Positions 499-52,949 of a stretch of DNA of 64,000 nucleotides are shown one piece after another. Both the position numbers and the translations under genes were made by a program. Position 1 is the first letter of the stretch; every line of letters begins with the position of its first letter. The notes under the pieces are model-generated. The model saw only the letters and a program-made list of their open reading frames with translations. It was not told where the DNA came from and did not search any database. The stretch spans positions 62,001-126,000 of the forward strand of contig PCBK01000080.1 in NCBI GenBank assembly GCA_002731275.1, given 5' to 3'. The stretch is from Deltaproteobacteria bacterium (GTDB lineage: Bacteria > Myxococcota_C > UBA6777).

Positions 499-509
499 GG
501 ACGAGGACC

Positions 510-1907: not shown

Positions 1908-2072
1908 GCGGCCTGGAGAAAAAGGCTTGCAGGTCCCCGGATGTGCAGGCCATGTAAGCGCCCTTGTGGCTCACGTTGATAATACCATCCTTCGGGATGT
2001 TGATGATTTTGAATGGATGAAGGATGTGTTCTTTCGAGACGTTTCCTTCCTGATAGACAAGGCGATCGAGAC

Positions 2073-5366: not shown

Positions 5367-5974
5367 TGAGCAACAAACGCCTCCAGAGGGACTCTGTCGA
5401 GCGACCTGGCCCTCCACCTTCAGGTATCCCCAAACAACGCCTTCCACGTTGGCTGAGCACCTGTTTACGTCTCATTTGTTACCCTTTTATGTGGATGGAT
5501 CTCATCGCACAGAAAGTCACACAGTGGAGCACACCGCCTCCTTACAAGATTACGGGTGGGTGCAAACAGCGCGGGCATTGTTGCCATTACGTCTTGATGG
5601 GGTGGCCGCCGATTATGGATAAGTGGCCGTGGTTCGGGAAATTCTGGGTGTGGTGGTACACGGAAGTGCATAGCTTTTACATGCGCGGCTATGACCTCGA
5701 AGATGAATCCAATGAGGTCGCGAAGGTGATGAGTTGTCGAAACCTTCGTGATGATGGTCGGTGTAATTCGTACTTGTTACGTCCGGCCATTTGTCGAGAC
5801 TGGCCTCGTATTGAGTACGGTGTCGAGCCGACGTTGCTCAAGGGATGTGGATACAACGTCGAGCTGAGGAGCGGAAGAGGGCGACATAAGCAGCAACAGG
5901 TCGACGAGGAGGGGGAGATTCAACGCAAGCTCACCTCTATCCAACGGGAATTGCAAGAAGAAGAAGAGGGGTAG
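5366..5974 (+). CDS. YkgJ-type CxxxxxCC cysteine-cluster protein
   Basis: The 202-residue protein carries a YkgJ-like (UPF0153) cysteine cluster: CKQRGHCCHY at about residues 66-75, then C...GRCNSYLLRPAICRDWP and a final GCGYN cysteine. In this family the cysteines are thought to bind zinc or an iron-sulfur cluster; the biochemical role is unsettled. A hydrophobic Trp-rich stretch (KWPWFGKFWVWWYTE) lies between the motifs, and the C-terminus is charged and coiled-coil-like. The start overlaps the gspN stop (TGATG), placing it as the last gene of the secretion operon, so a link with secretion is inferred from position only. Confidence 0.7.
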   Translation: MSNKRLQRDSVERPGPPPSGIPKQRLPRWLSTCLRLICYPFMWMDLIAQKVTQWSTPPPYKITGGCKQRGHCCHYVLMGWPPIMDKWPWFGKFWVWWYTEVHSFYMRGYDLEDESNEVAKVMSCRNLRDDGRCNSYLLRPAICRDWPRIEYGVEPTLLKGCGYNVELRSGRGRHKQQQVDEEGEIQRKLTSIQRELQEEEEG

Positions 5975-6319
5975 TCGGGTACGAACGCTCTTGTGTGGGG
6001 ACGTGAAGAGCGAGACTGTGTTGTCGGTAGGGGCGCTGTGACGCAAGTTGGGTGCACACTCCTGTTTTAGAAAGTCTTTTGTTCTTAAAGTGTTGAGGGC
6101 TTGTTTTGAAGGGAAGCGTTCGCGTTTTGCGTCTTTTCGTGTACACTATGCGGCGCTTTCGCGACGTGATCTTGATGTGTACAAGTTCATGACGTAATGA
6201 CATAGATTGACACATATCCTACGTATGATAGAGAGCAGAGAGCTCTTTGATTGAATAGACATGCCAAGGCCCCAAACTCAGTGACGCAGTGGCTTTGTGT
6301 GAAGGAAAGGCATCCACCT
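5975..6319. other. Intergenic region upstream of parC
   Basis: I find no gene here. It separates the secretion operon from the topoisomerase genes and must hold the parC promoter. A consensus TTGACA lies at 6207-6212 and a TATGAT at 6224-6229, but the 11-base spacing is too short for a standard sigma-70 promoter. A GAAGGAAAGG ribosome binding site at 6301-6310 serves the ATG at 6320. Confidence 0.5.
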
Positions 6320-8751
6320 ATGGGTACAAATGATATGGATTTGTTTGATCAAGCCCCCGACAATGATCGGGTGATCAAAGTTTCCTTACAAGAAGAAACC
6401 GAAAACCGATATCTCAACTACGCGATGAGCGTCATCACGAGCCGTGCTCTTCCCGATGTGCGCGATGGTCTCAAGCCCGTTCAGCGTCGTATCTTGTATT
6501 CGATGTACCACAACCTCAAGTTACTCCCTACGGCCAAATTCAGAAAGTCTGCGGCAGTGACGGGTGACGTTATGGGGAAGTTTCACCCCCACGGTGACCA
6601 AGCGATTTACGACGCGATGGTGCGTATGGCACAGCCTTTTAGCCTGCGCAGCCCACTGGTCGACGGTTACGGAAACTTTGGCTCCGTAGATGGCGATAAA
6701 GCCGCCGCCATGAGGTACACAGAGGTGCGGTTGCAGCCTATTTCCTTGGAGTTACTTGACGAATTGGGACAGGAGACTGTCGACTTTCGGGATAACTTCG
6801 ACGGGACGTTGCAAGAACCGATCGTGTTGCCTGCGCGCTTTCCACAGCTTCTCGTCAATGGTAGCGCTGGTATCGCCGTTGGTATGGCGACCAACATCCC
6901 ACCTCACAACCTCGGTGAGGTGATGGACGCTTTGCTGATGTTGATGGAAAACCCCGACGCGACCATTCCTCAACTGATGAGGAAGATCAAAGGTCCCGAC
7001 TTCCCGACAGGTGGAGAGCTTATTACACCACGAGTTGATCGTATCAAGATCTACACAAAGGGTCGTGGAAGTGTCGTCACACGCGGAGAGTGGAAAGAGG
7101 AAAAGAGCCGCTCCCAGAAGAAACAAAAGACCAAAAAAATTATCATCACTTCCATCCCGTACAACGTCACCCGCGCGACCATCGTCGAAAAAATTGCCGA
7201 GATCATCATCTCCAAAAAGATCCCCATGCTCGTCGATGTTCGCGATGAGTCGACGGAGATTACACGTATTGTCCTTGAGATGAAGGTCAAGACTGAGGTC
7301 GATCTGGTGATGGCGTATCTGTTCAAGCACACACCACTTCAGCAAAACTTTGCGATCAACTTGACCGCACTTGTCCCCACACCAAACCCTCTCGTCGCAG
7401 CGCCTTCAAAGCTCTCCATCAAAGAGATCCTGGAGCAGTTTTTGGCCTTCCGGATCGACGTGTTGCGACGTCGGTTTGAATTCAAGCTCGCCAAGTTGCT
7501 GCGACGTATCCACATCCTTAAAGGCTTTGAGATTATCTTCCATGACCTCGATGAAGCCATCAGGATCATCCGTCAATCAGATGGTAAGAAAGATGCAGGT
7601 CTCAAGCTGCAGAAGCGATTCAAAATTGACGAGGTCCAATGTGAAGCGGTTTTGGAGACGAAACTGTACAGACTCGCTCGTCTCGAGATCAAGAGCATCA
7701 TTGAGGAACTCAACAAGCTTCAAGCTGAAGCAGACCACATCCAAGATATCCTTGATCACCCAGCCAAACTCTCCGCTGAGATGAGGAAAGAGTTCGAGAC
7801 ACTCAAAAAAGACTATGCGGAGCCTCGACGCACACGTATTCGCGAAGTGGATACAAGTTTGCAAGTCCAACCCGAGGACTTTATCCAGGAAGAGGACACT
7901 CACGTCATCCTCACCAAGAACGGATGGATCAAACGTATCCGTACGATCAGCGAGATCAGCTCAATCCGTACACGAGAGGACGATGAGGTCGTCTCGATTA
8001 TGCCTGGCAGTACCAAAGAGTCGGTCTGTTTCTTCACGGATAAGGGCGTCGCGTATACGATGCGTATCAACGATGTCGTCGCAACAACGGGTTATGGAAA
8101 CCCCTTGCAGGATGTCTTCAAATTTGAAGATGGTGAGCGGGTTTTGGCATCTTTCAGTCTTGATCCACGTGCCGTCGGTGATATTGGCCTGGGTATCGGA
8201 GAGGAAGACAAAGAGACTATCCCTCCAACACACCTTGTCGCGATCACTGAGCAGGGGTATGGTTCACGTATCTCCCTCGCGACCTTTGCTGAACCTTCGA
8301 CCAAGAGTGGACGACGATTTGTGAGGCGCTCCAAAGGAGACTCGGTACTCTTTGTGTCGCTATGTGATGGCCAGGAGTCCACGCTCGTCGTCAGCAAGAA
8401 GAAACGTTACTTGATGTTCCCGTCGGAAGAGATCAAGTTTCTCTCTTCACCTGGGAAAGGTGTGCGTTTGGTGCAAATGGATGATGGGGATCTGCTCTTC
8501 ACTGCGACGATGTTTACCTCCAAAGAGCAACGACTGCGTGTGGAAACCGACGAAGACGATATTGTCGAGTTTGTCCCCGAAAAAATGAAAAAGGGAAAAC
8601 GCAACAGTCGCGGCCAAATCAAACGCAGCGTCAGAGGTTCCTGGAGTCACGTCTTGGAAGACGAGATTGTGATCCCCTCATTGTCGGAAGATACGACAGG
8701 AAAAACAGAGAACGACAAGCAAGAGACCACAACATCTGAAGGAGTCGTCTG

Positions 8752-8752
<1 letters not shown>
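6320..8752 (+). CDS. parC: DNA topoisomerase IV subunit A (GyrA/ParC family)
   Basis: This is the DNA-breaking subunit of a type IIA topoisomerase. From the ATG at 6320 (ribosome binding site GAAGGAAAGG) it has 810 residues; an upstream in-frame start at 6251 adds 23 residues without family character. The winged-helix region is clear, with the catalytic Tyr in [11 protein letters not shown] (Tyr133). The C-terminal beta-pinwheel (about 540-760) lacks a recognisable QRRGGKG GyrA box; the nearest stretch is [13 protein letters not shown] therefore prefer ParC over GyrA, though a divergent GyrA is possible. The residue equivalent to E. coli GyrA Ser83 is Gln94 ([10 protein letters not shown]). 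It overlaps parE by TGATG at 8750-8754. Confidence 0.85.
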
Positions 8753-10686
<1,934 letters not shown>

Positions 10687-13356: not shown

Positions 13357-14205
13357 TTATCGAACACAGAGGGAGTGACCGAGTCCACGTTTGTCACGGG
13401 GACGATTGCGACATTTGTAGCCCCAACCATCTTGGGAACCACCACCTGCGAGGCGAGCAATATGCCAGCGACCCATTCCTGGTGCGCGACATGCTCTTCG
13501 TGGGAAACGCTTAACCATACCGTACGTTGCACGTCTCCAACCACGGGGGCAGCGAGCACCTTTAAATGCACGGAATTTGGGAATGCGGGGACGTCCGGGG
13601 ACGCACAAGGAACCACCAAGTTTGCGGCTGTCACGGGGACGGTTACGACATTTGTAGCCCCAGCCATCTTGGGAACCACCACCTGCGAGGCGGACGATGT
13701 GCCATTGACCCATTCCTGGTGCGCGACATGCTCTTCGTGGGAAACGCTTGACCATACCGTAGGACGCAAGACGCCAACCGCGTGGACAACGTCTGTCGCC
13801 TTTAAATGCGCGGAATTTGGGGCCACGACGACTCTTCTTGATGCGCTGCTTCATTTTGCGCTGCTTGAGTTTTTTGGCGAGTCTTTGTAGGCCTCGGCGA
13901 GGTGCTGGGACGCACAAGGAACCACCAAGTTTACGGCCATCACGGGGGCGATTGCGACACTTGTAGCCCCAACCATCTTGGGAGCCACCACCTGCGAGGC
14001 GGACGATATGCCAGCGACCCATTCCTGGTGCACGACATGCTTGGGCTGTGAAACGCTTGACCATACCGTATGACGCAAGGCGCCAACCTCGTGGACATGT
14101 TCCGTCACCCTTGAAGTAACGGAATTTTGGTGCAGCAGAGGACATCGCGGGCATTAAGCCGATCGCGAGTACAGAGATACCCATGGCAAGTAGAATCTTC
14201 TTCAT
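13357..14205 (-). CDS. Secreted protein with three copies of a four-Cys domain
   Basis: The 282-residue protein has a signal peptide (MKKILLAMGISVLAIGLMPAMSSA, cleavage near residue 25) followed by three near-identical domains of about 68 residues. Each reads C-P-R-G-W-R, then Y-G-M-V-K-R-F, C-R-A-P-G-M-G, W-H-I, the invariant GGGSQDGWGYKCRNR, and ends LG-x-S-L-C-V. Each domain has four cysteines, presumably two disulfides. Domains 1 and 2 are joined by a Lys/Arg-rich linker (LKQRKMKQRIKKSRRG), a short version of the repeat that fills the middle of its paralogue at 14523-15860. The whole protein is strongly basic. I do not recognise the domain. Its Cys pattern and export suggest a stable extracellular or periplasmic fold, with binding of polyanions as one possibility. 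Confidence 0.8.
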   Translation of the reverse strand: MKKILLAMGISVLAIGLMPAMSSAAPKFRYFKGDGTCPRGWRLASYGMVKRFTAQACRAPGMGRWHIVRLAGGGSQDGWGYKCRNRPRDGRKLGGSLCVPAPRRGLQRLAKKLKQRKMKQRIKKSRRGPKFRAFKGDRRCPRGWRLASYGMVKRFPRRACRAPGMGQWHIVRLAGGGSQDGWGYKCRNRPRDSRKLGGSLCVPGRPRIPKFRAFKGARCPRGWRRATYGMVKRFPRRACRAPGMGRWHIARLAGGGSQDGWGYKCRNRPRDKRGLGHSLCVR

Positions 14206-14522: not shown

Positions 14523-15860
14523 TTATCGAACACAGAGGGAGTGACCGAGTTTACGTTTGTCACGGGAACGGTTGCGACATTTGTAGCCCCAACCATCTTG
14601 GGAACCACCACCTGCGATGCGAGCGATGTGCCACTGCCCCATACCAGGCGCACGACATGCTTTACTTGTGTAACGTTTGACCTGCGCATAGCTCGCGTGT
14701 CTCCAACCTCTTGGACAGCGAGTCCCTGCGAATGCTCGGAACTGTGGACGTCTTGCTTTCTTTTTGCGTTGAAGTTTGCTTCTACGTTGTTTGAGGATTT
14801 TGATCTTACGTTGCTTGGCTTTGCGTTGCTTGAGGATTTTGGCTTTACGTTGCTTGGCCTTACGTTGACCGGCTGCTTTGGCTTTGCGTTGTGCTTTGAT
14901 CTTGCGTTGTTTGAGGATTTTGATCTTGCGCTGTTTGAGCTTTTTGATCTTGCGCTGTTTGGCTTTGCGTTGTTTGGCCTTACGTTGGCCGCTAGCCTTG
15001 GCTTTGCATTGTGCTTTGATCTTGCGCTGTTTGAGGAGCTTGATCTTGCGTTGTTTGAGCTTTTTGGTATTGCGCTGCTTGATTTTTTTGATCTTGCGCT
15101 GCTTGGCTTTGCGTTGTTTTGCCTTACGTTGGCCGCCAGCTTTGGCTTTGCGTTGTGCTTTGGCTTTGCGTTGTGCTTTGATCTTGCGTTGTTTGAGTTT
15201 TTTGATCTTGCGCTGCTTGATGAGTTTGATCTTGCGTTGTTTTGCCTTGCGTTGTTTTGCCTTGCGTTGTTTTGCCTTGCGTTGGCCGCCAGCTTTGGCT
15301 TTACGCTGTGCTTTGATCTTGCGCTGTTTGAGGATTTTGGCTTTGCGTTGTTTGGCTTTGCGTTGGCCGCTAGCTTTGGCTTTGCGTTGTTTTGCCTTAC
15401 GTTGGCCACCAGCTTTGGCTTTGCGCTGTTTGATCTTGCGCTGTTTGAGGATTTTGGCCCTACGTTGTTTGATCTTGCGCTGTTTGGCTTTGCGCTGTTT
15501 GGCTTTGCGCTGTTTGATCTTGCGCTGTTTGGCTTTACGTTGTTTGGCACGTCGCTGGAGGGCTGTGTTGCCAGACTTCATACAAAGTGTATGGCCAAGT
15601 TTTCGACTGTCACGGGTACGGTTACGGCATTTGTAGCCCCAACCATCTTGGGAGCCGCCGCCGGCGATACGAGCGATGTGCCATTGGCCCATGCCTCGCG
15701 CTCGACAACCTTGTTTTGCGAGTTTGTAGGGGACCATTTTCCAACCAGAGGGACATTTTCCATCTCCGGGGAATGCCTGCATTTGGGCTGCAAAGGACAG
15801 CGCTGGCATCAGGCTGAGAACGAGGGCTGAGATACCCAGAGTCCATAGAATTTTCTTCAT
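14523..15860 (-). CDS. Secreted polylysine-repeat protein flanked by two four-Cys domains
   Basis: This 445-residue protein is a paralogue of the preceding entry. It has a signal peptide (MKKILWTLGISALVLSLMPALSFA), a four-Cys domain at about residues 27-95, a repeat region of roughly 260 residues, and a second four-Cys domain at about 375-445. The repeat region is made almost only of K, R, Q, A, I, L and G in five- to six-residue units such as QRKAK, QRKIK and ILKQRKIK, broken by AGGQRKAK or ASGQRKAK. It has hardly any acidic residue. The true frame is set by the signal peptide and both Cys domains; long open frames on the other strand are side effects of the repeat. AGGAGTTGATCC precedes the ATG. 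The function is unknown. Confidence 0.82.
   Translation of the reverse strand: MKKILWTLGISALVLSLMPALSFAAQMQAFPGDGKCPSGWKMVPYKLAKQGCRARGMGQWHIARIAGGGSQDGWGYKCRNRTRDSRKLGHTLCMKSGNTALQRRAKQRKAKQRKIKQRKAKQRKAKQRKIKQRRAKILKQRKIKQRKAKAGGQRKAKQRKAKASGQRKAKQRKAKILKQRKIKAQRKAKAGGQRKAKQRKAKQRKAKQRKIKLIKQRKIKKLKQRKIKAQRKAKAQRKAKAGGQRKAKQRKAKQRKIKKIKQRNTKKLKQRKIKLLKQRKIKAQCKAKASGQRKAKQRKAKQRKIKKLKQRKIKILKQRKIKAQRKAKAAGQRKAKQRKAKILKQRKAKQRKIKILKQRRSKLQRKKKARRPQFRAFAGTRCPRGWRHASYAQVKRYTSKACRAPGMGQWHIARIAGGGSQDGWGYKCRNRSRDKRKLGHSLCVR
14747..15560. repeat. Degenerate 15-18-bp coding tandem repeat
   Basis: The DNA encoding the Lys/Arg/Gln tract is a long array of short units (on the plus strand TTGCGTTGTTTGGCTTTGCG-like and TTGATCTTGCGCTGTTTG-like blocks), with higher-order blocks ending in TTGGCCGCCAGC or TTGGCCGCTAGC. 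Such arrays expand and contract by slippage or recombination, so length may vary between strains. Confidence 0.8.
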
Positions 15861-36434: not shown

Positions 36435-39080
36435 CTATTTTTTTACATCAAATTCAAGTGAGAAGCCGGTCTTTTGCTGCAAGATTGCGTTCAACGCTTG
36501 TGCTTCTCCGGCTGGCGGTTCGACGCTGATCTTGGCCTTGATCGTCGCCTGATCCTGGTGAAACCCCGGTTCTTTGCGCAAACCCCATTCTTCGGGAATC
36601 AATTGCTTGGCGATCTCCTTGATTTTGTGCTGATCTGAACGAGGTCGGATCTTGATCTCCCACCCCACTATTTTCGAGAGCTTCGCGAGCACATCGGCGT
36701 ATCGCTCACCGACATATGGCGAGATGAATGTCACCTCGAGCGCCTGTCCTTTTTGTCCCACCTTGAGCAATTCGTGCTCAGCTCCTGCAAAGACATTGCG
36801 AATGAGTTGATACGCCTGATTCAACTCTTGTGGACTCGATGCATCTGGTAGATCTGGGATACTCAGGCTGCTCGTTGACGACACTGAGGCGTCATCTGTG
36901 GAAGGTGCCTCTTTTTGTGTTGTCTGCTCTACTTTTGGTGCGTCTGGTGCCTCTGTCTCTTCGGAAGCAGGTGGCTCTTGTGGGGGAGGTGTGAGAGAGA
37001 TTCCTTTGAAGGCGAGTTGGAAACCTGTCTTCTCAAGGTATTGGTCTGCGATCGCTTGTAGCGACGGAATGGGCAGAGCTGTGGCGAGCTGTACGACGAT
37101 CTTCTCTTCTTGGAGGTGGAGGGAGGGCGTCTTCTCTAGCTTTGCGTCGGATGGGAGCAATCTATGGACGAGCTCCATGAGGGCTTGTTGGTTGGGAGTC
37201 TCTCTCAACTCAATCTCCCAACCTGTCTCTACTTTCAGCTGATCGATGACGGCCTTATGTAGCTCTTTTGCGCGTTTGGGAAAGTTAAACGACAACACAA
37301 GCGTCTGCCGCTGGTTATGTCCGCTGCGCTTGTACAAGCCGTCCTTCTTGCTGAGGTATGCGTCGACACGTTGCATTGCGCTCGCTGGATCGAGAGGGCC
37401 ACTTTTCTCCTCCTCTGCGTCGCCCTTCTTCGCCGAACGAAAATGTTTGCGCAGGGTGTACAAAAAGGGTCTCTTCTTGTCCTTTTTGAAGGGAGAATTC
37501 TTGCTGTCGAGAACAGTCGCGACGCGGAGCAATTCATTGTCGTTTTGTGCGCCTTCTGCGTCCCCCCAAAGTACGAGCAGCTCCTGAACTGTGTACAGCC
37601 TACCTGGTGTCTTTTGTGCGCGTATCATCTCGCCCAACTCGGGGAGGTTCTTGTGGGCAAAAGGTTCTTTCCTCTCGCCTTTGCTTGCCTTCTTCTTGGG
37701 ATAGAAGGTCGTCTTGATGTTGGTGACTTCGATACTTGAGCCGATGGTCGGTAGATGAACTGTTTTGACTTGTGCTTGGTGGAGGGCATCACGAAGCGCC
37801 TCTCGTGCGCCGCCTTCACCGTGAACGAGGGCTACTTGTGCAGGTGCGAAGCTACACATCGCCGAGACGATCTGGGCTGTATCTGCGTGCGCACTCAGAC
37901 CATACGTTCCAACACTACAATCGAGGCGGACTTCTTCGTTGTTGAGCCGAAGCTGACCACCACCTGCGCGTGCGACTTCTTGAATGGCGCGTCCCGGTGA
38001 TTCTTCGTCCTGGTATCCTGTGATCGCGATATGGTTGGCTGGATCGTCGATGAGCTGTCTTGCATAGACAGGGCTCGGACCACCTGAGAGCATCCCCGAG
38101 CTCGATACGATGATACCTGGACGGGTTTGGGCGGCTGCTTTTCGGGTCCGTGGGTCGTTGACAGGTTGGGCCGGACTGTCCCGAAAGAAGAAGGGATTAC
38201 CGACCTTTTGGGCGCGCTTTTTGAGCCAGGGAGAGAGCAGGTCGGGATAGGAGGCGTAGGCATTGCACACCGAACGAACCATCCCGTCGACAAAGATCGG
38301 GACTCTGCGCATGCGCTTTTGTTCCATCGCCTGACTCAACAACAAGATGATCTCTTGTGCCCGTCCGACGGCAAAAGCTGGAAACAAAATCGAACCTCTT
38401 CTGTCGATGACTTCGCTGACTTGTTCGACGAGACGATGCTCTTCTGCGGCGCGGTTGGCGTGCATACGGCCACCATAGGTGGATTCTGCGACGACGAGAT
38501 CGGGTTTGATACGTGGCAGGTACATACCTGGGATGGTCTTTTGTGGTGTGACGGAGATGTCACCACTCATCAGCAGACTGGCATCTGTTCCTTCTACGTA
38601 GACGGCTGCTGCACCGAGAATGTGTCCCGCAGGGGTGAAGGTCAGTCGAATGTCACCGTCCAGGATGTCGATGCTGCGACCAAAGGGGACGGGGCGCGTC
38701 GCGCCGAGCATCATCTCGACGGCGTGGAGGGGGTAGAGGGGAACTTCACCTTCTTGTTCGAGCTCCATCTGCATGATCTTGAGGGAGTCCATGAGAAGGA
38801 TGGTCCCGAGTGTCAGGGTGGCAGGGGTCATGTAGATGGGGACATGTGGATAGGATTGGTGGATGAGTGGCATCGCGCCGAGGTGATCCATGTGGGCGTG
38901 TGTGAGGATGATCGCGTCGATACCGCCCAATTCTTGAATGGGTGACAACCACGGCAAATTGTTTCCTGGAGCGTTCATGCGGATACCACAATCGACGAGG
39001 AGTCGTCGTCCGGATATTTCGAGCAATGTGCATGATGCGCCGACTTCATCTGCGCCGCCGAGGAATGTTAATTTGGCCAT
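36435..39080 (-). CDS. Beta-CASP metallo-beta-lactamase ribonuclease with duplicated C-terminal domain
   Basis: Residues 1-455 form a metallo-beta-lactamase/beta-CASP nuclease of the CPSF/YSH1 type: zinc motif HAHMDH at 61-66, PAGHILGAA with a His ligand, LLMSGDIS, STYGGRMHANR, PAFAVGRAQEI, GIIVSSSGMLSGG and the final YGLSAHAD. Relatives are RNA exo- or endonucleases. A Lys-rich linker and a long extension follow. Two related modules lie at about 605-690 and 785-881, each reading VI/L-x-QL...GWEI...LLP or LIP...LEKTGF or LQQKTGF, joined by a Pro/Glu/Ser-rich linker. The gene is head-to-head with a Suv3-type helicase gene, 157 bp apart, which suggests a joint role in RNA decay. Confidence 0.85.
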   Translation of the reverse strand: MAKLTFLGGADEVGASCTLLEISGRRLLVDCGIRMNAPGNNLPWLSPIQELGGIDAIILTHAHMDHLGAMPLIHQSYPHVPIYMTPATLTLGTILLMDSLKIMQMELEQEGEVPLYPLHAVEMMLGATRPVPFGRSIDILDGDIRLTFTPAGHILGAAAVYVEGTDASLLMSGDISVTPQKTIPGMYLPRIKPDLVVAESTYGGRMHANRAAEEHRLVEQVSEVIDRRGSILFPAFAVGRAQEIILLLSQAMEQKRMRRVPIFVDGMVRSVCNAYASYPDLLSPWLKKRAQKVGNPFFFRDSPAQPVNDPRTRKAAAQTRPGIIVSSSGMLSGGPSPVYARQLIDDPANHIAITGYQDEESPGRAIQEVARAGGGQLRLNNEEVRLDCSVGTYGLSAHADTAQIVSAMCSFAPAQVALVHGEGGAREALRDALHQAQVKTVHLPTIGSSIEVTNIKTTFYPKKKASKGERKEPFAHKNLPELGEMIRAQKTPGRLYTVQELLVLWGDAEGAQNDNELLRVATVLDSKNSPFKKDKKRPFLYTLRKHFRSAKKGDAEEEKSGPLDPASAMQRVDAYLSKKDGLYKRSGHNQRQTLVLSFNFPKRAKELHKAVIDQLKVETGWEIELRETPNQQALMELVHRLLPSDAKLEKTPSLHLQEEKIVVQLATALPIPSLQAIADQYLEKTGFQLAFKGISLTPPPQEPPASEETEAPDAPKVEQTTQKEAPSTDDASVSSTSSLSIPDLPDASSPQELNQAYQLIRNVFAGAEHELLKVGQKGQALEVTFISPYVGERYADVLAKLSKIVGWEIKIRPRSDQHKIKEIAKQLIPEEWGLRKEPGFHQDQATIKAKISVEPPAGEAQALNAILQQKTGFSLEFDVKK

Positions 39081-39237
39081 GTGTTGGGGATCCTTGTGTT
39101 TGCAGTCTCTGAGCGATTCTGGGACTGTTTGTATCGAAAGAAGATGGTTGTACCCGCATGTCTTGTATTTTCTTCTTTACGATATCTTGTCGTTTGTGGC
39201 AAATATAGACGCACACATTTGGGAGGATTTGTCGTCT

Positions 39238-41766
39238 ATGTCATACCAACAAGAGCTGCTCGATCTCATCGCACCAGAATACCTTTCTCTGCCCCACGAA
39301 CTGCGCCTCTATCAAGGTCTAGAGGAGACCGGGGAGACCTCTCTTGAGCGTGCCAGAGAGAACGGATTTTACAGGGTCGCAAAGGTCAACGATGAACGTC
39401 CAGCTCTATTCCTACACGAGTCACAATTCGAAGTGTTTGGGCAACTCATCCTCGAAGTTAGCCGTCTCAGGAGACTTCAAGAGGACACAGAAGATGAGCG
39501 GACAGAGCCCGAAGAAGATCTTGAAGATGTCGACGCAGAAGTGTCTTTTGACGAAGACGTCGAGATGCTCCCTGAGACCTTTGAGGCTGAACACCTCACA
39601 CTCACAACCGAGCAGTGGAAGATCTGGTTCGCGACGTTGTGGTCAGCGTGTCAGCCGTTCGAAGAAGCGCGTCCTTTGCTCGGAGACGAGGCTTCGTTCG
39701 CCAAGCCCGAAGAGGTCCTGCGTTGTTACTATCTCTCCGTCTCCCACGCAGCCGACGAAGTCGAAGCTGAGGTTGTCCCTGATTCGACAGAGGAGGCGTG
39801 GGGGTGTGATGTCGAGACGTTGAAGGCGTCGATTGTAGAGACCTTCCACAAAAGACTCGAAGGGTTGAAAGATCTGTGTCAACAGCGGCTCATCTGGAAG
39901 GAGAATGAGCGGGCCATCGGGCACTTCTTTTTTGTGGAGATCCGCGAGCGCTGGCGTCAAAAGCAGTTCACGTGGGATAAAAAGTTCGTCTTCAAGGGCG
40001 ATGTTGAGGCGAGCGAGAAGGAGAGGTGGGACCTCCTACGTTCGCAGATCTTCACATCCCACGAGAAGGACGCTTACAAGTGGTTTCGAGGGTATCGAGG
40101 GAAGCTCGATGTAGACGCCGCAAAAGAGCGCCTCTTAGGATATATTGAGGCGTGTGATGAGGCGCTGGAGACGGAGTGGAAGAGGCGAAAACATCGTCGT
40201 TTGTTCAAAGAGCGGTACAAGGAGATGTCGAGTCTGGCGTCACAATTTCCGCTCGCCCGGCAGATGAAGCGCGAGTGGATCTTTTATTGCGGTCCAACCA
40301 ACAGCGGTAAGAGTTATTCGGCATTTGAGGCACTTGCTGCTGAACAAACAGGTGTCTATCTTGCGCCACTTCGTCTGCTGGCGATGGAGGGGCAGCGTGA
40401 GCTTCAAGCTCGTGGCAAGAAGACCTCCCTGATGACTGGTGAAGAGCGCGATATTGTCGAGGGAGCAGCGTGTATCTCTTCGACGATCGAAATGCTCAAC
40501 CCCGAGCGTGTCGTTGGTGCTGCGGTCATCGACGAGATCCAATTGCTCGCGCACCCACAGCGGGGCTGGGCGTGGTTTCATGCGCTGTTTGGCGCGCCTG
40601 CCTCCAAGCTGATCTTGACAGGTTCAAAGTACATTTTGCCCCTCGTGAAGCAATGTGCTGAATATTTGCAAGAACCACTCAAAGTCATCGAGCTGGAGCG
40701 TTTTACTTCGTTGACCTGTCTGGAAGAGCCTTCGGATCTGTTGGCGCTTGAACCTGGAACGGCTGTGATCTGTTTTTCTCGGCGCGATGTGCTCGCGCTC
40801 AAACGCAAAATTGAGTCTGCTGGCAATCAGCGTGTCGCCGTGATTTACGGAGGGCTTCCGCCTGAAGTCCGTCGTCGCGAAGCGGCACGTTTTCGTGGTG
40901 GGGAAGCCGAAATCCTCGTCGCAACAGACGCGATCGGCTATGGTTTGAACTTACCCATCAAGACCGTGCTGTTTTGGAGTGTGGACAAGGTCTCTGCGGG
41001 GATTAAGCGTCCACTGATGGCGGCGGAAGCACAACAAATTGCAGGAAGGGCAGGGCGGTACGGTTTACATGAGGCTGGCTTTGTTGGAGCCTTCGAAGAG
41101 GAACATCTAGAGGTCGTGCAGGGGCTCCTTCAAGAACGTATGCACCCAACACACGGACCATATGGTATTCCACCATCTCTCGAACATCTCAAGCTGTTGT
41201 CATCGTGTCTGGAGTCAAGTGATTTACCTGAGTTGCTTCGTTACTATCGACGAGAGGCGTGGTTTGATGAGCCATTTCTCGTGCCATTTGTGCCTGAGCA
41301 GATGTTGACGATCGCCGAAGAGTTGGAGCCTGTGATCGAGGAGGCGCCCTTGACGTTGAAGTACGCCTTCTCTCTCGCGCCGATTCCTACGAAGTTTAAG
41401 CGCCTGTTACGGGAGCATAAGAGGTTGGCGAAAGCCTATGTAGAGGGGAAACCTTGGGCATTCCCGCTCTCGCAGCTGCATCCGTACTTTGCCGATTACT
41501 CGGAGAACGAGCGACAACTCTACCTCGCAGAAGAGCAGAGTCAGCGCCTTACATTATATAGTTGGTTGGCGCATCGTTTCCCTGAGCGGTTTGTGGCGGG
41601 GGAAGATGCTGAGACATTCCGTGCGATCGTCGAGCGCTTTTTGAGCCGCTCTCTCTCAAAAGGGACACCCATCAGGCGTTGTCGTCGTTGTGGTGTAAAG
41701 CTCGCTCCATTTTATCGTTTCCAGATTTGCCAGCCTTGTCATCACGGGAAAACGTTCTACCAATAA
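39238..41766 (+). CDS. Suv3-like DExH RNA helicase
   Basis: From the ATG at 39238 (GGAGG 11 bases upstream) the protein has 842 residues; the open frame reaches back into the RNase gene and is not coding there. An acidic N-terminal region of about 340 residues precedes the helicase core: Walker A GPTNSGKS (about 351-358), APLRLLAMEGQREL, LMTGEER, CISSTIEM, the DEIQ box with ARGW-like PQRGWAWFHALFG, VICFSRRDVLALKRKIE, VIYGGLPPEVRR, ILVATDAIGYGLNLP and QQIAGRAGRYG. These are signatures of SUPV3L1/Suv3. A C-terminal zinc ribbon (CRRCGVKL, then CQPC) closes the protein. Mitochondrial Suv3 unwinds RNA for a 3'-5' exonuclease; a similar partnership is inferred here. Confidence 0.87.
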   Translation: MSYQQELLDLIAPEYLSLPHELRLYQGLEETGETSLERARENGFYRVAKVNDERPALFLHESQFEVFGQLILEVSRLRRLQEDTEDERTEPEEDLEDVDAEVSFDEDVEMLPETFEAEHLTLTTEQWKIWFATLWSACQPFEEARPLLGDEASFAKPEEVLRCYYLSVSHAADEVEAEVVPDSTEEAWGCDVETLKASIVETFHKRLEGLKDLCQQRLIWKENERAIGHFFFVEIRERWRQKQFTWDKKFVFKGDVEASEKERWDLLRSQIFTSHEKDAYKWFRGYRGKLDVDAAKERLLGYIEACDEALETEWKRRKHRRLFKERYKEMSSLASQFPLARQMKREWIFYCGPTNSGKSYSAFEALAAEQTGVYLAPLRLLAMEGQRELQARGKKTSLMTGEERDIVEGAACISSTIEMLNPERVVGAAVIDEIQLLAHPQRGWAWFHALFGAPASKLILTGSKYILPLVKQCAEYLQEPLKVIELERFTSLTCLEEPSDLLALEPGTAVICFSRRDVLALKRKIESAGNQRVAVIYGGLPPEVRRREAARFRGGEAEILVATDAIGYGLNLPIKTVLFWSVDKVSAGIKRPLMAAEAQQIAGRAGRYGLHEAGFVGAFEEEHLEVVQGLLQERMHPTHGPYGIPPSLEHLKLLSSCLESSDLPELLRYYRREAWFDEPFLVPFVPEQMLTIAEELEPVIEEAPLTLKYAFSLAPIPTKFKRLLREHKRLAKAYVEGKPWAFPLSQLHPYFADYSENERQLYLAEEQSQRLTLYSWLAHRFPERFVAGEDAETFRAIVERFLSRSLSKGTPIRRCRRCGVKLAPFYRFQICQPCHHGKTFYQ

Positions 41767-42309: not shown

Positions 42310-42939
42310 ATGAAAAAGAACATGTTGAAATCAGGTCTCATTCTCTTGTCATTCTTCTCGGTTTCTTTGCTCGCCACACAGGCATTCGCGAGCCGCACAG
42401 TCTGGCGAGGTGTGGAGAGATGTTCGACAACATCCTCAACAGTGTGTAACACAACGTGGGAAGGTGTTCGTTGCCACAAACGTTATCACACAACCTGCCG
42501 TCAACCTGTGAGAGTCTGTCGATATGGTGCCTTTGGAGTGCGAAGATGTTTCCGACGTGTCCGTCACTTTGATAAGGGATACACCAACGGTGGCTTCTTC
42601 TGGAGAACACGCTACCGACGAGGTCGACGTTTTTACAGACACAACCGACGTTTTTACAGACACAACCGACGTTTTTACAGACATAACCGACGCATCAACC
42701 GTCGCCTTCGTACTCGCACTCGCGTTCGACGTAACACACGGACCAGACGTTACCGAAACCGTACTGTGACCAGAAGCCGCACCACTCGCACGACGCGACG
42801 TGGAAACAGAGTCACCCGACGCACAACGACCCGAACACGAGTTCGTAACCGCAACACTGGCCGGACCACTCGTAGCAGCCGTACCACACGCTCCAGCCGT
42901 CGCGTCTCTTCCCGACGCGGTCGACGTAGCCGCCGATAA
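42310..42939 (+). CDS. Secreted Arg-rich repeat protein
   Basis: The 209-residue protein has a signal peptide (LILLSFFSVSLLATQAFA, cut near residue 27) and a short Cys-containing segment (about 28-95, six cysteines such as RCSTTSSTVC and CRQPVRVC). The tail of about 110 residues is made almost only of Arg with Thr, Ser, Asn, His and Tyr. The tail begins with three copies of RRFYRHN and continues with RTRTR- and TTRSSR-type units; there is no acidic residue. AAGGAG precedes the ATG. It is not homologous to the Lys-rich proteins at 13357-15860 but has the same plan: exported, Cys module plus polycationic repeat. I recognise no family; polyanion binding is a guess from charge. Confidence 0.72.
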   Translation: MKKNMLKSGLILLSFFSVSLLATQAFASRTVWRGVERCSTTSSTVCNTTWEGVRCHKRYHTTCRQPVRVCRYGAFGVRRCFRRVRHFDKGYTNGGFFWRTRYRRGRRFYRHNRRFYRHNRRFYRHNRRINRRLRTRTRVRRNTRTRRYRNRTVTRSRTTRTTRRGNRVTRRTTTRTRVRNRNTGRTTRSSRTTRSSRRVSSRRGRRSRR

Positions 42940-43028: not shown

Positions 43029-43158
43029 TCCTATCGAAAATGTAGCAAAACACAGGATGTTGTGTTCGTCTGCGAAAAGAAGCTCAACCCTTGTGGGATG
43101 ATGTGATCTGCGTAAAATGAGTTTCATCCGAAAACATTTTACATATCAGGAAATGCAG

Positions 43159-46100
43159 ATGAAAAGATCGTGCGTTGTGCTCTTTACGTCGTTTTTTATC
43201 TATGTTGGAGGCTCCCAAGCACAGTCACCCAGCAACAAGCCGCAGCCGCTGGCGGTTGCGCTTGAAGGTGGTATCAGTATGGGAGCATATGAGGCCGGTG
43301 TTGCCTGGGTCTTGATGTCTTTTTTGAAGTTGCGTTATGAGCTGGAGCTCGGCGAGCTTCACATGAAGAAACGTGGGTATACAAACAAAGATTGTTTGAA
43401 CTTCTTTAGAAAAAAACGCGCTTCCACGGATCGGAAGTTTATCAACTATTGTCGGCTTTGGAAGCGAATGTCGGGGATGAAGAAGTCGAATGAAAATGGT
43501 TATACACTCCAAAGAAGGTTCGAAAAAAGTCGACGCTCTTTCTTGGGGCTCATCAAGGATCCGTTTAAGATTGTTTCTGTGTCTGGTGGCTCCGCTGGGA
43601 ACATCAATACATTTCTTTCTACGATGACGTGGTTTGACGAGAGCATTGGGAGTGTTCAAAACAACTACTTTTGGAATGCTTGGATGACTGTGGGGTTGAA
43701 TACTTTACAAGGCAACACCAGTCATTGCGGCACATACAAACGGGCATTGCTCTCCAATTACAAATTGATCCAACCCAATCCCACCCATGGAAACGAGCCT
43801 GCCTTTATCCGAAAGTACAATTGCCCCAATACCATCCGGGACATGTACACGATAAATGATGGCTTATTCACTCGTCGGGCGTTTATGCTTCCCATTCATT
43901 TTTTGAAAGAGAGATTTGAAAAGAAAAACCCATCGCGATTATGGTCACCGTATGCCAATAAACTTCTGAAAGATACCTTCTGGATCTCGATCCCCCTCGC
44001 AGGTGCCCAAGCTCGCGATAGTCAATTGGGTAATGTTACCTACGCCACGCAAAATTACCACGTGGCGTTTCGCCCGTTTTTGCAGGGAAAACGAATGGGG
44101 TTTTTGCAGACCCCCAAAACCCCAATCAAGAAGCAAACGCTCGGTTTCATCAGCCAACGAGTCATCCTTCGAGAGAGGAAACGATATGGTATTGCGTTCT
44201 CTACAACGCAGAATGTCTTCAAGGCAGGGAGCGCCTTTCCCATGGCATTTGGCTCCGTTGGCATCCCTGTGTGTCAGGGAACATTGAAAGCCTGTATGGC
44301 AAAGCAAAGGTTTGGTTGCAAACCTGAACAGAAAAACTCGACTTGTACAAAGTTTTTTGTGGATGGTGGCACATTTGACAATTTACCCATCGGTCTCGCA
44401 TACAACTATATCGAGAAACCCACCGATCAGCAGAAGGCCAAGATCCTCTCCATCACAACAACACGCGAGACATACCAACAGTATTCTGCTGTTCACCTTA
44501 AGCCTCCTCCAGATGCGAGCGAGTTTCGAGGTCTCTCATTTTTGCTCAAGTATTTGTCTGGGATTGCTTCTACTGCTATGACCGGAGAGAAACGCAATTT
44601 CTTCCTGGAGCTTCTTCGCAAACAACGGAATGTCAAAAAGAGAATCCGTTCACGTGCCGCTCGTCTTACTCGTGAGCGACTCAGGCAGTTGCGGATGCTT
44701 CATCAACAACAAATCCAAAAATTTCAATCTGGGATTGATACAATCCAGAAACATATCGATGAATTTTCATCTATGGGGATACTCTCCAAAGAGCAAAAGC
44801 AGCAGTCAAACGCCTTGAACCAAAAGATGCAATTTTTGCAAGAGCAACGACAGCAATTGAAGGAGTTCTTCAGGCTACAACGGCAATTATTGCGCAAAGG
44901 ATTTCCCCAACCACCCTTGGCGTCCAACCAGCGACAAAAGTTTATCCCACGACAACCCATCATCTCCCACGGAATTTATGGTTCTCACCTCGTCAGCTTT
45001 GCCGCTTTTATCGGACCACACTACCGAAAGTATGACTTCTACTTGGGAATGTTTGATGCTATGCGTATGATCTTGCGTCATGAATTCCAAAAGAAGCCCC
45101 GCGCAAGAGGCACATTCTGGAGTTCCCAAACAATCGAAGATATCCGCTTCCTTTATCGATTGTTTGAGTTGGATCGACCGAGTCATCAAGAAGCTTGGTT
45201 TGTGATCCATGCGGCTTTTGAAGAGGCTCTCCGAAAAGAATTTCAACACTCTGTATTTGAAACTCTTTTTGCGAATCGAGAGCGCAAACCAAGTGTGGTC
45301 CACAAAGAACTTCGAACAGCCTACCCACTTGTGCAACGCCTGATCACACTCAAGCGAGTCAAACGTTGGATCCAGTTCGCTTCACTCTCTGTCAGTTCAA
45401 GAACGCGGAAAATGGATCATATCTTTCCGCATCTGCTGAGTGTTGGTAAGCTCTCAGCCAAAAAGCAAGCAGCCCAACGCGCCAAAAAGGACGCCAAGAT
45501 CTTCAAGTTTGTCAAAAGGATCTATGACAGAACCCTTTATGACAGAGCGAAAAAGACGACTTTCTCGGCGTTGTATCGAAAGACATTCAACACCTCCCAG
45601 ATGAGATTGACGGAGTTGCCTCTACCAAAGACCCCTTCCAAGGAACTAAAAGTCATCACAAATGCGATCCTCATGCAAGGATATGATGTGATGCAAAAAC
45701 TTCTCGATATCTTTGAGATGGACATGTTCAACACCTCAGGGAACAAAAAAAGCCAAGCCGAAGAGAGATGTGAATCATTCTATGCTGAACTCAACATGCA
45801 GCCCAACCGAAAGAAGAGACTCGTTGCGGAGTGTGTCATAGACCTGAAGCGCGAGTGGATGTTGAGCAAACGTTATGTCATCAACAAACACAAAGGTTAC
45901 ACGAGCGATGTAGCCTACAAACAAATCCTCCAAGCTGATGGCATTTATGGGATCCAACAACGGATCAAGGCACATATCAAGGAACTCCCCCTCCTGACAA
46001 AGAACGAGAAGGATTTTGCGGAAAACTCCGTGAATTGGTTTCGGAAGATCGTAAAAAGTTTGCTCAATCGATTGTGGGAAATTGAATTGGATAATAAGAA

Positions 46101-46713
46101 TTCGGTCGGTGTGGGAGTCGCAAGTGCTCTTGGATTTATCGGTAACTCCGAGCAATTTGACACCGCTTACAAAAGCTATGGACCGAGTGGATCGATCATT
46201 CCACACTATCGAAAGTGGGGGTGGGGATTGTGGCCTGTTCATTATGTCGGCCTCACTGCCTACGTTCATCCTACCAACGCCAACCACCTTGACTGGGAGC
46301 TTTGGAATGTCGGATGGTCTGGGTCTTCTCATTGGTTTGAGCTGACCTTTCTCAAGCTGCTCTTCGGCGATCGGTTTTTGTTGTTAACACCAGTGAAGCT
46401 CACCTACTCCCGTGGTTTTGTGGCAAATGTTCTCAAGTTTGGTGTTCATGCTTACGTTGGGTTCATGTATCACAGTAACAACGAAGGCGAAGATCTCTGG
46501 TCGCTCAACCCAAACATCGGTGTTCACCTCACGATCGCTTCATTCGTCAAAGTGGAATTCAATGTTGGGACAAAACTCTTCCGGTTCGAAGATACTGCCA
46601 CTGTAAAGGACGATTTGTTCACAAATACACACCCAATGTTGCTCAACATCTCCATTGGCCTTGCACAACCACAGGGCTGGCTTTGGTGGGTTCTTGCTTC
46701 AGGGAAAGGCTAA
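43159..46713 (+). CDS. Very large patatin-like phospholipase, exported
   Basis: The ATG at 43159 follows AGGAAATGCAG and starts a signal peptide (MKRSCVVLFTSFFIYVGGSQA); the protein has 1184 residues. A patatin domain holds the oxyanion loop EGGISMGAYEAG (about 36-47), the nucleophile Ser145 in SVSGGSAG, and the Asp402 dyad partner in FVDGGTFDNLPIG, split by large insertions. A Gln/Lys/Arg-rich coiled coil follows (about 495-580), then a mixed helical part. The last 200 residues are rich in aromatic, alternating strands (WGLWPVHYVGLTAYVHP, FELTFLKLLFG, VKLTYSRGFVANVLKFGVHAY) that could form an outer-membrane barrel. Phospholipase A activity is expected from the complete dyad. Typical patatin-like proteins are 300-700 residues. 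Confidence 0.78.
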   Translation: MKRSCVVLFTSFFIYVGGSQAQSPSNKPQPLAVALEGGISMGAYEAGVAWVLMSFLKLRYELELGELHMKKRGYTNKDCLNFFRKKRASTDRKFINYCRLWKRMSGMKKSNENGYTLQRRFEKSRRSFLGLIKDPFKIVSVSGGSAGNINTFLSTMTWFDESIGSVQNNYFWNAWMTVGLNTLQGNTSHCGTYKRALLSNYKLIQPNPTHGNEPAFIRKYNCPNTIRDMYTINDGLFTRRAFMLPIHFLKERFEKKNPSRLWSPYANKLLKDTFWISIPLAGAQARDSQLGNVTYATQNYHVAFRPFLQGKRMGFLQTPKTPIKKQTLGFISQRVILRERKRYGIAFSTTQNVFKAGSAFPMAFGSVGIPVCQGTLKACMAKQRFGCKPEQKNSTCTKFFVDGGTFDNLPIGLAYNYIEKPTDQQKAKILSITTTRETYQQYSAVHLKPPPDASEFRGLSFLLKYLSGIASTAMTGEKRNFFLELLRKQRNVKKRIRSRAARLTRERLRQLRMLHQQQIQKFQSGIDTIQKHIDEFSSMGILSKEQKQQSNALNQKMQFLQEQRQQLKEFFRLQRQLLRKGFPQPPLASNQRQKFIPRQPIISHGIYGSHLVSFAAFIGPHYRKYDFYLGMFDAMRMILRHEFQKKPRARGTFWSSQTIEDIRFLYRLFELDRPSHQEAWFVIHAAFEEALRKEFQHSVFETLFANRERKPSVVHKELRTAYPLVQRLITLKRVKRWIQFASLSVSSRTRKMDHIFPHLLSVGKLSAKKQAAQRAKKDAKIFKFVKRIYDRTLYDRAKKTTFSALYRKTFNTSQMRLTELPLPKTPSKELKVITNAILMQGYDVMQKLLDIFEMDMFNTSGNKKSQAEERCESFYAELNMQPNRKKRLVAECVIDLKREWMLSKRYVINKHKGYTSDVAYKQILQADGIYGIQQRIKAHIKELPLLTKNEKDFAENSVNWFRKIVKSLLNRLWEIELDNKNSVGVGVASALGFIGNSEQFDTAYKSYGPSGSIIPHYRKWGWGLWPVHYVGLTAYVHPTNANHLDWELWNVGWSGSSHWFELTFLKLLFGDRFLLLTPVKLTYSRGFVANVLKFGVHAYVGFMYHSNNEGEDLWSLNPNIGVHLTIASFVKVEFNVGTKLFRFEDTATVKDDLFTNTHPMLLNISIGLAQPQGWLWWVLASGKG

Positions 46714-49880: not shown

Positions 49881-52800
49881 CTACTTTCGCATTTTTGGTG
49901 GGATATTCCCTCGCTGCGGCGTTTGGTTGGCTTGTGCTTGTGCTTGTGCCGCCGCTTGGAGGATTTGTGGGTTGTGGACAAAGCGCAACGCGCTCTCAAG
50001 TGAGATCTTGCCCCTTTGGAAGAGATCCTTGAGCGCGTCGTCCATTGTGACCATTCCGTGCTTTTTGGAGACTTCGAGCGTGCTCTTGGCTTGGTGCATT
50101 TTTCCTTCGCGGATCAGGTGTCGGATCGCCGGTGTCGCGACCATAATCTCAAAGGCTGCGATTCGACCGTCGTTTGATTTGCGTCTCATCAATCGCTGTG
50201 AGACGACACCGAGTAGACAGGTCGAGAGTTGCGAGCGGATCTGCGGTTGTTGGTGCGCCGGGTAAGCGTCAATGATACGGTCGATCGTCTGAATGGCATC
50301 GTTTGTGTGGAGTGTTGCGAGCACAAGGTGGCCTGTCTCAGCCGCGGTCATCGCGGCTGAGATGGTCTCCAGATCACGCATCTCACCGATCAGGATGACA
50401 TCGGGATCTTGTCGAAGGACGTATTTTAGCGCGTTTGAGAAGCCCTTTGTGTCGGCGTTGACCTCTCGCTGGTCAACTGTCGCGAGAGCGCTCTCGTGGG
50501 TAAATTCGATGGGATCTTCGACTGTGATGATTCGGCAGGGGCGTGTCTGGTTGACCCTGTCGATCATACAGGCGAGGGTTGTCGATTTCCCTGATCCTGT
50601 CGGTCCAACGACCAACAGCAGGCCATGAGGTTGATCGGCGAGCTTCATGACTTGTTTGGGGATCTCCATCGTGCTTGGATCGGGGATCTTCGTGGGGATC
50701 GAGCGCAAAGAGGTCGCCATGTTGCCTTTTTGGTAGTACGCATTGACGCGAAAGCGCTGACCGTTTTCGAGTGATAAGGCAAAGTCAAGCTCGCGGTTGA
50801 GTTGGTACTCACTTCGTTGTCGGACTGTGAGGATGGAGTACAGCAACAATCTCATATCTGCTTCACTCAAGGGGAGGTAAGGAAGCGGTTCGAGGCTTCC
50901 GTTGATTCGGAGAATCGGGGGGCGTCCTGTTGTCAGGTGTAGGTCGGAGGCGCCTCTCTTGAGCACGAGGTGGAGCAAGGTCTTCATGTCGAGCTCGCCC
51001 GTTGGATCTGCGTCGTGACCGCCCTGGAAGGCGCGCACACCTGTCTCCATACCTTGCGCTGAGAGTGAGAACTCGTCGGGGTTCGTCGCGTAGGCTTTAC
51101 CGACCTCAAAGCTGATCTGACCACGACGATAAAGGGAGAGCAAAGAGCGGTTAAAGCTGATCAAGCCGGGATCTGTGCTGCTCTTGAGGAGGTCTTCCAT
51201 CTCCTCCATGCGCTGTTGACGAAGGAGCTGTGTCGCGGCAGGTGTACAGCTCAACATCTCGACTGCGAGGGCGCGACCTTTTCCGTCTTTCTTTGGGACC
51301 AAGCGCTGGGAGAGGATCCCCTGCAATGAGAGGGAGAGGTCCATCGCGACCTGTTCTCGAAGGTGTTCAGGGTAGTAGCTCATGATACGTTGGAGCGTCT
51401 GTGTCGCGTTGATCGTGTGGAGACTGGCCAGGACGAGGTGTCCTGTTAGGGCTGCCGAGATCGCGACTGACATCGTCTCATGGTCGCGCATCTCACCGAT
51501 TAAGATGACGTCAGGGCTCTCCCTGACGACGTGTCGTAAGGCGGCGTGGAAGGACTCGGTGTCTGAGCCGACTTCTCGCTGTGTAATGCGGCTCTTTTGG
51601 TCGTGGTGGATAAATTCGATGGGCTCTTCAATGGTGACGATGTGTGCCTGTCTGTTTTGGTTGATGTGGTTGATCAGCGCCGCGAGCGTCGTTGATTTAC
51701 CAGAGCCAGTGGCACCTGTGACGAGGACGAGACCTCTGTGGATTTTGGCGAAGTGGGTGAGTGACTCAGGGAGTCCCAACTCTTGGAAGGTGAGATTCCC
51801 TAACGGGATCGCACGTGCGACCAACGCCATCTTGCCCGTCTGTTTGTGCAGGTTGAGACGAAAGCGCCTCTTCTCATCGATGGAATAACCAATGTCGAGA
51901 TCACCGGTCTCGTCGTACCGTTTGCGTGCTCGTGAGGGGAGCGCCTGCGTAAAGAAAGACTCGAATTGTTCGCGGGTGTTGGGAGCGATATCTAGTGTGA
52001 CGACTTTCCCGTGTACTCTGAGCGCTGGAGGTCTTGTTTCGCACAGAAAGAGGTCCGATGCGTTCCATTCATCCATATGTTGAAAGAGTTGGACGATTGC
52101 ATCGAGGCCTTCGAGCGCTTGCTTTTGATCTTCTGAGAGTGTCGGGGCTTTGCGCTCGACCTCCCACTCTTTGGGTAGTTTTTGTGTGGTCTTGGTGTTC
52201 TCTGTGAAAGAGACTGGGGTGGCGGGTTTGATATTCGCAATGATCTCTGGCTCATGTTGGAGGATCGGCTCAAACTCGCTGACCTCGCCCATTTCTCTGC
52301 TCGCGAACATCTCCTTTTGTAAGAAACCTCTCTGCTCTTCGGCTTCTGAGGGAGGATCGAACTCCACCATATCATGACACCAGACCGTGACGAGCAGTTG
52401 TCGCTCTGTCTTGGACAGAGTGTCAGGGTACACACGTGTTGGTGAGCCATAGTCCAAGAGTTGTTTTTTGGCAGAGCGTCCGAGAATGTCCAGAGAGGGA
52501 GAAGCCGGGACGGTGATGATCGGAGAGTGATGGAAGGCCGCCTGAAACAAGCGGTTGAGCAAGGTCTCATCACTTGAGCGAGCGAGACCATAGCGGACCA
52601 TAAAGAGCGTGGGCAGTTGATCTGCAGGAATCATCGATGGTGAGGGGTTAGCTGAGCTTTGGAAGGAGAACTGACCTGACGTATTGATGAAGAGTCGAAT
52701 CGCCTGTTTCACGAGCGCAGAGACCATATCTTTGTCGCCGGGCCCGGTTGCTTCTAGCGGCTCATCGGACCACTGGAGACCGACGATGCTACCATTTAGG

Positions 52801-52949
52801 AGACCAATTTGGCAACGTTCGCTTCCAAAGTCGACGACCATTTGGCCTGTTGCACGGTTGATCGCGCAGAGCCCAAGGAGGAGGGGAAGTGGGTTTTTCT
52901 CCAGATCACCAGAGAGCTTGGGGCCTTGTGGGGTCGCTTCGATATCCAT
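49881..52949 (-). CDS. Double PilT-type retraction ATPase with DUF4388-like N-terminus
   Basis: The 1022-residue protein starts behind AGGAG. Residues about 1-110 (KLSGDLEKNPLPLLLGLCAINRATGQMVVDFG) match the DUF4388/PATAN-type regulatory domain common in Myxococcota. Two complete PilT modules follow. Module 1 has GATGSGKST (about 413-421) and DVILIGEMRDHET. Module 2 has GPTGSGKST (about 781-789) and DVILIGEMRDLET. The retraction-specific AIRNLIRE motif is kept in module 2 (AIRHLIREGK, about 940) but is degenerate in module 1 (AATQLLRQQR). The C-terminus is Ala/Gln-rich. PilT hexamers depolymerise type IV pili. No other pilus genes are in the window. Confidence 0.88.
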   Translation of the reverse strand: MDIEATPQGPKLSGDLEKNPLPLLLGLCAINRATGQMVVDFGSERCQIGLLNGSIVGLQWSDEPLEATGPGDKDMVSALVKQAIRLFINTSGQFSFQSSANPSPSMIPADQLPTLFMVRYGLARSSDETLLNRLFQAAFHHSPIITVPASPSLDILGRSAKKQLLDYGSPTRVYPDTLSKTERQLLVTVWCHDMVEFDPPSEAEEQRGFLQKEMFASREMGEVSEFEPILQHEPEIIANIKPATPVSFTENTKTTQKLPKEWEVERKAPTLSEDQKQALEGLDAIVQLFQHMDEWNASDLFLCETRPPALRVHGKVVTLDIAPNTREQFESFFTQALPSRARKRYDETGDLDIGYSIDEKRRFRLNLHKQTGKMALVARAIPLGNLTFQELGLPESLTHFAKIHRGLVLVTGATGSGKSTTLAALINHINQNRQAHIVTIEEPIEFIHHDQKSRITQREVGSDTESFHAALRHVVRESPDVILIGEMRDHETMSVAISAALTGHLVLASLHTINATQTLQRIMSYYPEHLREQVAMDLSLSLQGILSQRLVPKKDGKGRALAVEMLSCTPAATQLLRQQRMEEMEDLLKSSTDPGLISFNRSLLSLYRRGQISFEVGKAYATNPDEFSLSAQGMETGVRAFQGGHDADPTGELDMKTLLHLVLKRGASDLHLTTGRPPILRINGSLEPLPYLPLSEADMRLLLYSILTVRQRSEYQLNRELDFALSLENGQRFRVNAYYQKGNMATSLRSIPTKIPDPSTMEIPKQVMKLADQPHGLLLVVGPTGSGKSTTLACMIDRVNQTRPCRIITVEDPIEFTHESALATVDQREVNADTKGFSNALKYVLRQDPDVILIGEMRDLETISAAMTAAETGHLVLATLHTNDAIQTIDRIIDAYPAHQQPQIRSQLSTCLLGVVSQRLMRRKSNDGRIAAFEIMVATPAIRHLIREGKMHQAKSTLEVSKKHGMVTMDDALKDLFQRGKISLESALRFVHNPQILQAAAQAQAQANQTPQRGNIPPKMRK

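Follow-up and report, generated by a model that had tools for sequence, protein, structure and literature searches.

The archaeal aCPSF1/FttA proteins (KH-CPSF, including MTH1203 and PH1404) consist of a metallo-beta-lactamase (MBL) and beta-CASP core with conserved catalytic motifs, preceded by a pair of KH domains, and a KH pair on a beta-CASP RNase was called unique to the archaeal MTH1203/aCPSF1 orthologues (PMC3095777). U-rich RNA is bound by the KH domains of aCPSF1, and in archaea KH domains and nuclease activity together drive termination (PMC8716108). The bacterial beta-CASP RNase of the TTHA0252 type (431 aa) carries the catalytic core without a winged-helix-like or KH extension. Two described systems combine a helicase with an RNase. 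In the mitochondrial degradosome mtEXO (Suv3-Dss1) and in Suv3-PNPase, Suv3 with its SUV3_C domain works with an RNB- or PNPase-family 3'-5' exonuclease, and in mtEXO Suv3 and its partner are mutually dependent (PMC5818665). In the archaeal assembly of aRNase J with ASH-Ski2, a beta-CASP RNase works with an SF2 helicase, according to the title of a paper cited in PMC10470531.

In the window, which is the whole stretch of 64,000 nucleotides analysed here, an RNase gene and a Suv3-type helicase gene stand head to head and very probably encode an RNA nuclease and an RNA helicase (Table 1). The initial annotation had read them as a candidate RNA-decay module. The new element is the architecture of the RNase rather than the pairing of the genes: predicted KH pairs of the FttA type lie at its C-terminus, in duplicate.

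Table 1. Features of the divergent RNase and helicase genes (positions in the window)
Feature	Position	Strand	Basis or remark
Beta-CASP ribonuclease gene, 881 aa: MBL, beta-CASP, RMMBL, predicted winged-helix-like segment, two predicted KH-like didomains	36435-39080	-	
RNase catalytic core, residues 1-443 (MBL, beta-CASP, RMMBL)	37752-39080	-	Pfam, motifs, Foldseek
Residues 474-545 (three helices, two strands), predicted winged-helix-like segment	37446-37661	-	AlphaFold2 model
Predicted KH-like didomain 1, residues 563-693	37002-37394	-	AlphaFold2 pLDDT 88; Foldseek/VIA match to aCPSF1 N-terminal KHa-KHb
Predicted KH-like didomain 2, residues 751-881	36438-36830	-	AlphaFold2, Foldseek, VIA
Divergent intergenic region, exactly 157 bp	39081-39237	.	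Same length in G004; sequence not detectably conserved
Suv3-type SF2 RNA helicase gene, 842 aa, ATG at 39238	39238-41766	+	
Acidic N-terminal part, residues 1-334	39238-40239	+	No Pfam match
Helicase core: DEXQc_Suv3 (335-484) and Helicase_C (501-609)	40240-41064	+	Pfam
SUV3_C domain, residues 761-808	41518-41661	+	Pfam
CxxC-x12-CxxC zinc ribbon: C815, C818, C831, C834	41680-41739	+	Invariant in four aligned relatives

For the RNase, the MBL, beta-CASP and RMMBL domains all scored over the Pfam cut-offs, with the MBL fold beginning at residue 2. The motifs 1-4 and A-C were all present (LVDCG 28-32, HAHMDH 61-66, GHILGA from 152, GDIS from 173, ESTYG from 199, SAHAD 396-400 and VHG from 419), and their key residues were invariant in the alignment with 9 relatives. 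Domains and motifs together identify a beta-CASP ribonuclease, as had been proposed from the sequence at first reading. The best Foldseek matches of the core were aCPSF1 (PH1404, MTH1203, FttA), CPSF73 and TTHA0252, with about 32% identity to PH1404 in the Foldseek alignment. The nearest NCBIfam model was aCPSF1 (TIGR03675, 325.9 bits, under the equivalog cut-off of 580.2), while the RNase J model TIGR00649 gave 44 bits at a cut-off of 400, so the enzyme is not RNase J. It is apparently an active ribonuclease of the CPSF73/aCPSF1 type.

A related beta-CASP protein is the type VII CRISPR nuclease Cas14, and the core matched its model NF045584 at 256 bits, which would fit a defence or CRISPR-linked nuclease-helicase pair. 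However, the cut-off of that model is 800, PADLOC gave no match for the RNase and just generic matches for the helicase, and no Cas-like protein was found among the flanking proteins covered by the Pfam and NCBIfam scans. With no support from PADLOC or from the flanking proteins, a defence system is extremely improbable.

About 430 residues follow the core of the RNase. Their predicted secondary structure suggests a winged-helix-like segment first, and the confident AlphaFold model then holds two copies of a KH-KH didomain. The top six Foldseek rows for these didomains were all archaeal aCPSF1/FttA, matched at their N-terminal KH pair (E 7.8e-6 to 1.7e-4), with the KH of NusA next in the list. 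VIA-align gave Z 8.0 across the entire KHa-KHb for both copies (2ycb_A, 2xr1_A), a value that may reflect a common arrangement; ribosomal proteins reach a similar Z on single halves. By sequence, the modules gave no reliable Pfam or PDB match, and their identity came from fold comparison only. The evidence is good but not conclusive that the C-terminal part is composed of two tandem KH-KH didomains akin to the aCPSF1/FttA N-terminal pair. Judging from the fold, they may position RNA. No conserved GXXG motif was found in the modules, thus RNA binding by them is not assured; the KHa domain of MTH1203 is likewise without GXXG (PMC3095777).

Compared with aCPSF1/FttA, the window RNase has the same kind of core and a probable two-KH didomain of the same predicted fold, but the pair is N-terminal to the MBL domain in the archaeal proteins and C-terminal and present twice here. 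The window RNase also differs in being bacterial, in its unconserved GXXG and in its TIGR03675 score under the cut-off. In the open-access literature, neither a bacterial counterpart of the KH pair of MTH1203 nor a description of a CPSF73-like RNase with duplicated C-terminal KH pairs of the FttA type was found.

The likeness raises the question of a bacterial 3'-end cleavage or transcription-termination factor similar to FttA, in which the KH pairs would read sequence near the transcript end and the helicase would remove or unwind the released RNA. The core being nearest to aCPSF1 among the NCBIfam models, the KH pairs being best matched by those of FttA, and the archaeal termination driven by KH domains and nuclease (PMC8716108) count for such a factor. 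Against it, 326 bits is far under the aCPSF1 cut-off of 580, and the KH pairs lie at the opposite end and lack GXXG. Moreover, bacteria are not known to have Spt4, a partner of FttA. A termination factor is therefore highly doubtful.

The C-terminal modules were present in all five genomes of the phylum of the window and in 14 of the 251 genomes of a second phylum, and in a wider sample of 386 genomes they were confined to these two groups. The second phylum is probably Chloroflexota, a provisional assignment from general resemblance and from the best named match of the core, a Herpetosiphon plasmid. The modules are repeated, with two copies in the window RNase and more matched stretches in some other RNases, those of the second phylum among them, and they follow the beta-CASP core in every reading frame long enough to judge. 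Modules on other proteins such as helicases were also considered and rejected, since every module-bearing frame examined either includes a beta-CASP core as well or is incomplete, truncated where the available stretch ends. RNases of the core-only kind, about 450-500 aa in length, are common in bacteria. The KH-type RNases of the second phylum are about 1000-1200 aa or longer, and some genomes have more than one such gene. In two of them, L158 (G244:C71) 5744-8839 and L148 (G316:C1) 1-3621, this core is joined by several matches to the KH-like modules.

The extra C-terminal domains had been proposed as the contact with the helicase. A clear Suv3 was found in just one of the 14 module-bearing genomes of the second phylum, on another contig, and the other 13 were without one, thus the modules are not tied to the helicase. 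Their recurrence on RNases where Suv3 is mostly absent weakens a helicase-binding role, and the model gives them a KH-like fold, resembling the part of aCPSF1 that binds RNA. The domains are probably not the helicase contact, and that part of the first interpretation is not supported. If the architecture is real, there would be a bacterial family of KH-pair RNases in two phyla. The nuclease core would then have either acquired KH pairs on more than one occasion or undergone rearrangement, and bacteria would offer a system in which to study how KH pairs direct cleavage.

The helicase scored 155 bits for DEXQc_Suv3 (PF22527) and 34.3 bits for SUV3_C (PF12513), each over a cut-off of 27, and 51.6 bits for Helicase_C. 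Walker A (GPTNSGKS, 352-359), DEIQ (432-435) and QIAGRAGR (600-607) were all identified, and human SUPV3L1 was the best PDB match by sequence (E 5e-64). The catalytic motifs are intact, and the protein is apparently an active Suv3-type RNA helicase. The acidic N-terminal half and the zinc ribbon, also described earlier, were both seen again: the N-terminal 330 residues have a pI of 4.8 against 8.0 for the remainder, the acidity lying mainly in residues 1-110 (31 D/E and 10 K/R), and four cysteines form two CxxC.

The same head-to-head pair was found in G004 (JALTMC01, of another genus, deposited as a Myxococcales MAG; loci L034/L046), where the start codons are likewise 157 bp apart. Identity between the window and G004 was 56% for the RNase and about 40-44% for the helicase. 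In separate trees the partners from the window and G004 were sisters, both for the helicase (96/95), where the other Suv3 of the window genome falls outside, and for the RNase (96/94), with the unpaired RNases outside; this is thus a single inherited pair instead of two coincidences. The flanking genes of the pair differ between the two genomes, and the 7.5-kb contig of G004 holds no gene of the window besides the pair, though part of the neighbours should be visible. These are the only two genomes with the pair among the five sampled from the phylum of the window, all of one family (the window genome has 10.75 Mb). In G001 and G002 the RNase and a divergent Suv3 are encoded on separate contigs, and in G003 the RNase family is present with no clear Suv3.

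The 157-bp gap had been described as a shared divergent promoter region. Its length is exact, but no sigma-70-like promoter was found in it and the sequence is not detectably conserved, with the likeness between the gaps of the window and G004 being reached by 95 of 500 shuffles. A conserved promoter was thus rejected, and a shared promoter may be suggested from the gene geometry.

Suv3 had been called patchy in bacteria, which agrees with its occurrence at >80 bits in just three of the 188 genomes outside the family of the window, none of them with a beta-CASP match on the same contig. In the nearest Suv3 relatives, from Gemmatimonadota, any beta-CASP gene seen was of the core-only kind. In the best 80 Suv3 loci compared, just the G004 record has a beta-CASP neighbour; the 79 others showed no beta-CASP gene on flanks of up to 10 kb, some of which were short, and a few pairs may have escaped the comparison for that reason. 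A general pairing of Suv3 with beta-CASP genes was rejected on these counts. The pairing sought in other genomes is thus real but local, being inherited in two genera of one family.

A rival explanation is an inherited neighbourhood without joint function. The adjacency would then be inherited from the common ancestor of the two genera, with Suv3 acting with PNPase or an RNB exonuclease as in mitochondria and the RNase acting on its own substrates. Rival partners for Suv3 do exist in the window genome, with PNPase-type genes on C119 and C62 and a gene for an RNB exonuclease on C38. Its second Suv3 (C35) and second long RNase (C67) are unpaired, and Suv3 is widespread without a beta-CASP neighbour. 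Gene order is kept elsewhere in the family too, around the second long RNase (type B), and the survival of a pair therefore says little about joint function. On the other side, the pair persisted across the two genera while its flanks on both sides changed, and the helicase and RNase trees agree; this counter-evidence is modest, as the contig of the second genome has just 7.5 kb. Such a neighbourhood is somewhat less likely than not, and nearly as probable as joint function.

The type B RNase, also of the KH type, sits in a neighbourhood at 6285-11441 of L038 (G000:C67:30001-50000) that was also seen in L040, L041, L042 and L044. This neighbourhood is shared by the five genomes of the phylum, with a small alpha/beta hydrolase, a prfB-like gene and, in most, an Rrf2-like regulator. 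The two PNPase-type genes (G000:C119:52097-53446 and G000:C62:20189-21472) encode paired RNase_PH domains in frames of 763 and 700 aa, and two such genes were also present in G003 and G004.

The reading we prefer is that the RNase and Suv3 act in one step of RNA processing or turnover, to which we give a probability of about 45%; joint action is plausible but unproven, and a joint step is proposed because the linkage was inherited. The divergent arrangement would keep the two proteins in step. The KH didomains would grip or position RNA instead of holding the helicase, and the nuclease so equipped would cleave structured RNA or its 3' end. Suv3, moving 3' to 5', would unwind the products or pass them on, either to the nuclease or to the PNPase/RNB exonucleases of the cell. 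Gene linkage alone hints at a possible direct contact of the RNase with Suv3. Of the RNA-decay module first proposed, the gene identities are right, and the pair recurs outside this genome, so the ground for rejection named at the outset, a lack of co-occurrence elsewhere, does not apply; a helicase contact through the C-terminal domains is not supported.

The pair shares with mtEXO and Suv3-PNPase the Suv3 core, SUV3_C and the idea of a helicase plus an RNase, but the partner here is a beta-CASP enzyme. It shares with aRNase J-ASH-Ski2 a beta-CASP RNase and an SF2 helicase, whereas the archaeal enzymes belong to another beta-CASP branch (RNase J) and another helicase family and were linked by experiment, the window pair by gene linkage. 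If functional, the Suv3 linkage would be a beta-CASP/Suv3 partnership not described in the literature found. A more specific proposal, that a bacterial counterpart of FttA, a CPSF73-type RNase whose KH pairs were duplicated and now stand at the C-terminus, recruited the mitochondrial-type helicase Suv3 in one lineage into a machine for RNA 3'-end processing or decay, is unlikely.

Some other genes in the window were also observed. A 1198-aa protein with a weak patatin-like match (43117-46713) follows immediately after a small Arg-rich protein (42310-42939), and a protein of 1022 aa on the minus strand (49881-52949) apparently has two tandem ATPase domains of the PilT/T2SE type. Two adjacent secreted-looking proteins (13357-14205 and 14523-15860) are made of repeated CPRGW...RAPGMG(Q/R)WHI units, the second also having a long Lys/Arg/Gln-rich repeat stretch.
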